Part shown: positions 47,723-48,256 of the stretch, in pieces | Layout: each line of letters begins with the position of its first letter | Numbering within the stretch: the stretch's first letter is position 1 | Origin: Acidobacteriota bacterium | GTDB taxonomy: Bacteria > Acidobacteriota > Thermoanaerobaculia > Thermoanaerobaculales > Thermoanaerobaculaceae | Assembly (NCBI GenBank): GCA_004298115.1 | Contig: SCRJ01000130.1 | Span: 1 to 64,000 of the forward strand | Length of the DNA stretch: 64,000 nucleotides | Direction: 5' to 3' | Program-made: the position numbers and the translations under genes | Notes under the pieces: model-generated | Told to the model about the DNA's origin: nothing | Seen by the model: only the letters and a program-made list of their open reading frames with translations | The model's database searches: none

Positions 47723-47799
47723 CGCGGGGTGGAGCAGTCCGGTAGCTCGTTGGGCTCATAACCCAAAGGTCGCAGGTTCAAATCCTGCCCCCGCAACCA
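47723..47799 (+). tRNA. Initiator tRNA-fMet (CAT)
   Basis: The gene starts CGCGGGGTGGAGCAG and ends CCCCGCAACCA with an encoded CCA. The anticodon loop is CTCATAA inside a TGGG/CCCA stem. The first base C cannot pair with A72, and three G:C pairs end the anticodon stem; both are marks of the initiator tRNA. Confidence 0.96.
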
Positions 47800-47894
47800 A
47801 ACCAATTCGGAGGGCCACGCGATCGGCGTGGCCCTTTGTATTTCGAGTCGAGGTGCCGGGCAGGATTTGGTCCCGCGCCCGCCCGCCCGACCTC
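47778..47894 (+). repeat. Repeat unit A: tRNA-fMet 3' end plus terminator plus antisense element
   Basis: The unit begins in the T loop of the tRNA itself (TCAAATCCTGC, 47778-47788). It continues with the terminator hairpin (47811-47835) and GCAGGATTTGGTCCC (47860-47874), which is complementary to the T arm with one mismatch over about 16 bp. A pyrimidine-rich spacer ends the unit. Confidence 0.8.
47811..47838 (+). terminator. Terminator of tRNA-fMet
   Basis: AGGGCCACGC-GATCG-GCGTGGCCCT forms a 10-bp stem followed by TTG. It begins 11 nt after the CCA end of the tRNA. Confidence 0.7.
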
Positions 47895-48016
47895 GGGGTC
47901 AAATCCTGCCCCCGCAACCAAACCAATTGAGAGAGCCACGCGGAGTCGCGTGGCTCTTTGTTGTCCGGGAGGCATCGCGCAGGATTTGGTCCCTTCCCCC
48001 GCCCACCCGCCCCCTC
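47895..48016 (+). repeat. Repeat unit B: nested palindrome derived from the tRNA-fMet 3' end
   Basis: GGGGTCAAATCCTGC (47895-47909) pairs over all 15 positions, counting two G:U pairs, with GCAGGATTTGGTCCC (47979-47993). Inside lie the tRNA acceptor end CCCCCGCAACCA and an 11-bp hairpin AGAGCCACGCG-GAGT-CGCGTGGCTCT followed by TTG (47932-47960). The spacer TTCCCCCGCCCACCC closes the unit. The anticodon and D arms are absent, so this is not a tRNA. Confidence 0.85.
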
Positions 48017-48155
48017 GGGGTCAAATCCTGCCCCCGCAACCAAACCAATTGAAAGAGCCACGCGGGATCGCGTGGCTCTTTGTCGTTTGGGTGGCATCGC
48101 GCAGGATTTGGTCCCTTCCCCCGCCCACCAGCCCCCACACCCTCCACCGCCCCTC
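48017..48155 (+). repeat. Repeat unit C: nested palindrome derived from the tRNA-fMet 3' end
   Basis: Same design as unit B. The outer arms are 48017-48031 and 48101-48115. The inner hairpin AAAGAGCCACGCG-GGAT-CGCGTGGCTCTTT (48052-48081) has a 13-bp perfect stem. It differs from unit B mainly by paired changes in the stem and by a longer C-rich spacer. Confidence 0.85.
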
Positions 48156-48256
48156 GGGGTCAAATCCTGCCCCCGCAACCAAGCCAATTCGGAGGGCCAC
48201 GCGATCGGCGTGGCCCTTTGCTCTTCGGGTCGCGGTGCCGGGCAGGACGCGGTCCC
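48156..48256 (+). repeat. Repeat unit D: last copy with a degraded outer arm
   Basis: GGGGTCAAATCCTGC starts at 48156 and the inner hairpin AGGGCCACGC-GATCG-GCGTGGCCCT (48193-48217) is identical to that of the tRNA gene. The right outer arm reads GCAGGACGCGGTCCC, so the central part no longer pairs. The next 90 bases up to the patatin gene hold nothing recognised. Confidence 0.8.

Follow-up and report, generated by a model that had tools for sequence, protein, structure and literature searches.

An array of tRNA-fMet 3′-end copies with inverted T-arms in an Acidobacteriota genome has the architecture of the E. coli RtT repeats

What produced the series of tRNA 3′ ends that stands behind the initiator tRNA gene of this Acidobacteriota bacterium? 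The window, by which we mean the whole 64,000-nt stretch of DNA analysed, contains a plus-strand tRNA-fMet gene (47723–47799; CAT anticodon, CCA encoded) that was called by ARAGORN and matches Rfam RF00005 with 66.9 bits. The original prediction placed three further copies of its 3′ end downstream, explained them either as scars of repeated insertion at an attachment site or as an independent mobile palindrome, and knew of no described element of this form. The array is real, and it is not unprecedented: the form is that of the 178-bp tandem repeats of E. coli tyrT/tyrV, which correspond to the rtT RNA of Rfam (RF00391, RtT).

The 22-nt tail TCAAATCCTGCCCCCGCAACCA, which starts within the T loop and ends exactly at CCA, is present in four exact copies starting at 47778, 47899, 48021 and 48160, in agreement with the predicted spacings (121, 122 and 139 bp). 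Tail A (47778–47799) is the tRNA's own segment from T loop to CCA, and tails B, C and D are each joined to a right arm, giving combined elements at 47894–47920 (CGGGG plus the 22-nt copy), 48016–48042 and 48155–48181. As also predicted, a G+C-rich hairpin with a short T run follows every one of the four tails, namely terminator hairpins a (47811–47835), b (47932–47957), c (48054–48079, of the b type) and d (48193–48217, of the a type). Behind the hairpins lie the left arms, which are inverted T-arms: A′ (47858–47875, GGGCAGGATTTGGTCCCG), the longest version, B′ (47979–47993, GCAGGATTTGGTCCC), C′ (48101–48115) and the decayed D′ (48240–48257, GGGCAGGACGCGGTCCCG). All of these elements are on the plus strand.

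Units B and C share 93% identity across 122 nt, and for units A and D the figure is 90% across 101 nt; the longest exact repeat inside the array is 40 nt, so that short-read assembly could resolve it. The array is not a product of chance, because the 14-mer CAAATCCTGCCCCC has exact matches at the four tails and nowhere else in the 3.97-Mb genome of the window. The tRNA-Pro gene of the same window (30780–30856) shows no comparable pattern of tails and arms. Overlapping open reading frames run across the tRNA gene and the array on both strands (for example 47756–48292, minus, and 47836–48480, plus); they are likely spurious, and tpr of the E. coli tyrT repeat offers a parallel. The units of tail and hairpin also give weak hits to isrJ (RF01393; E 0.02–2, below the gathering score), including full-length matches to the Salmonella RNA at 47899–47957 and 48021–48079 (E 0.05–0.06). 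We took these for look-alikes composed of a CCA end and a terminator, and isrJ itself may be derived from a tRNA end and a terminator.

The inverted T-arm had been predicted for units B and C, where it is indeed found, but it is not limited to them: it follows units A, B and C, and a decayed version follows D. A′ is complementary to tail B at 16 of 18 positions by Watson–Crick pairing, and the complementarity of B′ and C′ extends to 13 of 15; in each case both exceptions would be G–U wobbles in RNA. The pairing of arm with next tail was matched or beaten by 0 of 300 shuffles for A′–B, 3 of 300 for B′–C and 2 of 300 for C′–D, three tests that are not independent, the units being duplicates. Each arm has two pairing options, either with the preceding tail, which encloses the terminator, or with the following tail, the three loops then measuring 18, 23 and 40 nt. 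The predicted fold of each unit, a long stem around its hairpin, is accordingly one possibility, and the arm can equally pair with the tail that follows.

The prediction that structure rather than sequence is kept found little support. The terminators differ by a single compensated pair (AGGGCC..GGCCCT versus AGAGCC..GGCTCT), which says little, since stem keeping is expected in a terminator, while the differences between the long arm A′ and B′/C′ shorten the pairing and are not compensated between units. Covariation argues at most weakly for structural selection, and beyond that one terminator pair it does not support it.

Comparison with a close relative (G003), whose upstream gene and DNA are 91% identical to the window, reveals extra DNA behind the array. 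In G003, a single tail with an a-type hairpin (94% identical, the hairpin having the same sequence as hairpin a) is followed by ggt, 465 bp after a tRNA-fMet that the assembly gives partly as Ns. The ggt gene of the window (gamma-glutamyltranspeptidase, PF01019; 52310–54277, plus strand) lies ~4.5 kb from tRNA-fMet, and homology to G003 restarts at 52279. Just before that point is a fifth, decayed copy of tail and terminator hairpin (copy E, 52176–52242, plus strand; in BLAST 76% identical to unit C along 67 nt, with E 4e-9), which forms the right border of the extra segment. The ~4-kb block encodes a patatin-like phospholipase (48350–49276, minus; PF01734, E 4.4e-27), an AraC-type regulator (49502–50503, minus; PF12625, E 3.9e-36), a DUF1269 protein (50576–51400, plus; PF06897, E 6.7e-13) and a DUF308 (HdeD-like) membrane protein (51343–51975, plus; PF03729, E 1.4e-14), and at the DNA level it has no homologue in eight congeners save short chance matches. 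G003, with one tail and then ggt, has the layout of an unoccupied site, and direct repeats of the tRNA 3′ end border the extra DNA of the window, intact in B–D and decayed in E. Extra DNA bordered by fMet tail copies is the form expected from insertion at the tRNA 3′ end. Because DUF1269 and DUF308 genes also stand behind fMet in a member of another genus (G010), in reversed orientation, the difference might instead reflect loss of the cargo in G003 and not a gain in the window.

The distribution of the array in relatives ties it to one locus. Specifically, the 16-mer KKCAAATCCYRYCCCC occurs in 40 relatives only at tRNA-fMet or at most ~320 bp downstream. Extra copies of T-arm or tail within 320 bp are present at 7 of ~31 loci from the order to which the window belongs (G000, G006, G011, G021, G025, G026 and G029), G000 being the window's own genome, with the array on contig C185, and the G021 copy covering the T-arm part alone. 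In the rest of the class they are found at 1 of 40 loci (G135), four of the 40 being displaced copies or incomplete genes instead of a whole fMet, and among unrelated loci at 1 of 106 usable ones, besides one second whole tRNA gene. Second copies mostly match the fMet variant of the genome they are in (CCTATCCCC in G026 and G029, CCCGCCCCC in G011), and most congeners are without one. The congener G006 has a similar left arm, with TTGGTCCCG in common with the window, which suggests that the unit is at least as old as the split between the two, or was exchanged between them.

Tails at larger spacing occur in two genomes. One contig of G030 bears four same-strand tail ends, 10, 1.6 and 13.8 kb apart, and G025 has a further same-strand tail 3 kb on; the terminators are unlike, and the tail-bearing contigs of G030 are not joined to that of fMet. 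Behind several of these tails come a terminator and then a left arm of the type GGGCAGGATTCGTGT. Left-arm-like sequences are found in G030 on contigs other than that of fMet, and in G025 at a distance of 3 kb.

Related arrangements were seen at other fMet loci. The tail ends on G030:C335 (L279, L275, L280) are preceded by a common AAGGTCGTATATATCTCGA, which resembles the tRNA variable loop and T-stem AAGGTCG. In another family of the class (L261, G135:C48:38400–39600), the fMet terminator is followed by an inverted T-arm plus variable loop, ATTTGAACCTGCGACCTTTGG, and by copies of the tail end at +237 and +573, some of this recurring as a unit of ~260 nt. In family f2 (L168, L170, L173 and L175, from G032, G033, G024 and G019, respectively), a longer fMet terminator draws the CCA end itself into the pairing, CAACCAAACGAA...TTCGTTTGGTTG, and in G019 this pairing reaches the acceptor strand (GTCCCC/GGGGAC). 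Several f2 genera also carry, behind the fMet terminator, a different palindrome of ~120 nt (L309, G032:C436; CGACCCC...GGGGTCG, with GGGCGAAGCCC inside), which is dispersed at low copy number.

Integrases are associated with tRNA-fMet elsewhere in the class. In other families, fMet 3′ halves that start at the anticodon loop (CTCATAACCC...CCA) and have their own terminators are displaced 3–67 kb from the tRNA or from each other, and tyrosine integrases adjoin such halves in G048, G057 and G142. The tyrosine-integrase islands at fMet (G047, G048, G053, G057, G142 and G133) resemble the window in having a same-strand fMet 3′ copy and a displaced terminator, but their repeat is mostly of 45 bp and starts at the anticodon loop, in contrast to the 22-nt T-loop tail of the window, and the inverted T-arm, which was looked for in them, is absent. 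None of the PF00589 hits of the window's genome is on the contig of the array, and that genome has no match to PF00239 (serine recombinase) and hence no recombinase of the DsiB/CcrB type. Likewise, neither a tyrosine nor a serine recombinase was found beside the short arrays of relatives in the genomes searched, no tyrosine integrase is on the tail-bearing contigs of G030 and G025, and serine recombinases are missing in nine of the ten genomes searched for them. The attachment-site explanation of the original prediction has thus gained support, from the ~4 kb that lie between copies of tail and terminator and are missing in G003, from the integrase islands of the class and from the kilobase-spaced tails of G030 and G025. 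In its simple form it nevertheless leaves part of the array unexplained, because there is no integrase near the array and the integrase islands lack the inverted T-arm.

We favour the attachment-site reading in an extended form, to which we give slightly better than an even chance: the array would consist of head-to-tail duplications of the tRNA-fMet 3′ end, in the RtT architecture of E. coli tyrT, that arose by insertion at the T loop/3′ end and were enlarged by tandem duplication. On insertion at the T loop, the incoming 3′ end would restore the tRNA, while the resident 3′ end and its terminator would be pushed downstream, so that each unit would be composed of a tail, a terminator and an arm, the inverted T-arm, that the inserted unit would have brought as its left end. 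Three units would be nearly empty, with 18, 23 and 40 nt between the arms, and the fourth would span the ~4-kb cargo and be closed by the decayed tail and terminator before ggt. Tandem duplication would have multiplied the short units, C being a copy of B or the reverse and D a copy of A, and the recombinase may have been lost or may act in trans. We infer that the first duplication arose by insertion and that today the array does no more than supply extra terminators and possibly RtT-like trailer RNAs. Counting against insertion are the decay of copy E to 76% and the similarity of B and C, which spans whole units; for part of the array, simple tandem duplication is explanation enough. Nor was an excised or circular form seen.

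The last point leads to the main competing account, which we regard as a tentative but substantial alternative: an RtT-like array made without an integrase, in which the tail was duplicated, the inverted T-arm arose by fold-back template switching and unequal crossing-over or slippage then multiplied the whole. The 4 kb by which the window differs from G003 would be a separate matter. The same build at E. coli tyrV and in the RtT consensus helix fits this account, and such a duplication could explain the tyrT repeats too. In addition, B and C as well as A and D are alike over their full unit length, and second copies show the variant of the resident tRNA, which local duplication or conversion would lead one to expect. 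What it does not explain is copy E, which closes the 4 kb of extra DNA on the far side, nor the kilobase-spaced tails of G030 and G025 with their unlike terminators.

An improbable third account would make the array a functional one, in which readthrough from tRNA-fMet yields processed RtT-like RNAs or the inverted T-arm acts as a switch by pairing with the 3′ part of the tRNA. The pairing in excess of shuffles and the left arm shared with G006 (TTGGTCCCG) point in this direction, as does the proposal, cited in PMC2965389, that the rtT transcript of E. coli plays a part in the stringent response, but most congeners have no second copy, the arm differences between units are uncompensated and RF00391 finds no match at E ≤ 10. 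The mobile palindrome of the original prediction, an independent element of REP or MITE type with T-arm-like ends, has become very improbable, since no tail-bearing copy away from fMet was found in 40 relatives and no transposase was seen nearby; in its favour are the left-arm-like sequences elsewhere in G030 and G025 and the different, dispersed palindrome family that occupies the same slot in f2. A dispersed REP/BIME or MITE family was rejected for the window's genome, which has no dispersed copies. Least credible of all is an assembly artefact, to which a tandem repeat in a genome of 203 contigs would be prone: the units differ by 7–20%, no exact repeat exceeds 40 nt, and similar arrays are present in other genomes.

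Compared with known insertion arrays, the favoured reading has a counterpart at another structural RNA. The tRNA regions targeted as attachment sites have been reviewed, (PMC8371274), and T-loop-to-CCA is a usual extent. In Dehalococcoides, tandem islands bounded by 20-bp repeats of the gene 3′ end lie within 100 kb downstream of ssrA in all cases, and 15 of them are without an integration module (PMC3146451), which shows that such arrays can persist without one. The likeness to the window consists in arrays bordered by short direct repeats of a structural-RNA 3′ end; the differences are the tmRNA gene, the DsiA/DsiB serine recombinases and the kilobase size, and inverted repeats go unmentioned in the main text of PMC3146451, whereas the window has the inverted T-arm.

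The nearest known system is the E. coli tyrT/tyrV repeat. At tyrV, used as a yardstick, tail copies are located at +156, +334 and +512, and the inverted T-arm GGGGAAGGAT reaches a score of 16, equalled in 0 of 300 shuffles. The Rfam RtT model has a consensus helix between inverted T-arm and tail in which the last nine bases, up to CCA, take no part; the pairing of the window's arm with the following tail is the same pairing, and A′–B leaves the same nine nucleotides unpaired. Of 318 tRNA genes tested, 3 combine a tail copy with an inverted T-arm that scores ≥ 11 and so counts as strong (those of the window, of E. coli tyrV and of a Margulisiibacteriota fMet locus), a measure of co-occurrence and not of frequency, the window and E. 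coli tyrV having been put in by choice. The Margulisiibacteriota locus (L041:500–800) has one tail copy at +165, with the inverted T-arm GAGAGGATTTG in between and RtT-like surroundings.

The E. coli RtT repeats have so far looked like an enterobacterial oddity of obscure origin. Here the same arrangement is found at another tRNA in a distant lineage, in several genera of one order, and in one case apparently enclosing genes. It could be conjectured, though we think it unlikely, that inverted T-arm and tail together define a phylum-spanning class of elements borne on tRNA 3′ ends, with RtT as the sole named member, whose ends mimic the T-arm in opposite orientation and enclose anything from a few bases to kilobases of genes. 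Cassette-like arrays behind a tRNA gene would result, moved by an enzyme supplied in trans. Both tyrT/tyrV and the window have tandem units right behind a tRNA gene, each with a copy of the tRNA 3′ end including CCA and an inverted T-arm that pairs with it. They differ in the tRNA (tRNA-Tyr versus tRNA-fMet), in the loop (~100 versus 18–40 nt), in the intrinsic hairpin that every unit of the window contains and in the ~4-kb cargo after its last unit. The stretch 47650–48350 has no RF00391 match at E ≤ 10, while the E. coli repeats score 133–138 bits; the window array is RtT-like in architecture and not a member of that family. Its main value is that it ties the E. coli RtT repeats to insertion-type arrays at tRNA ends, an origin that can be tested by strain comparison.
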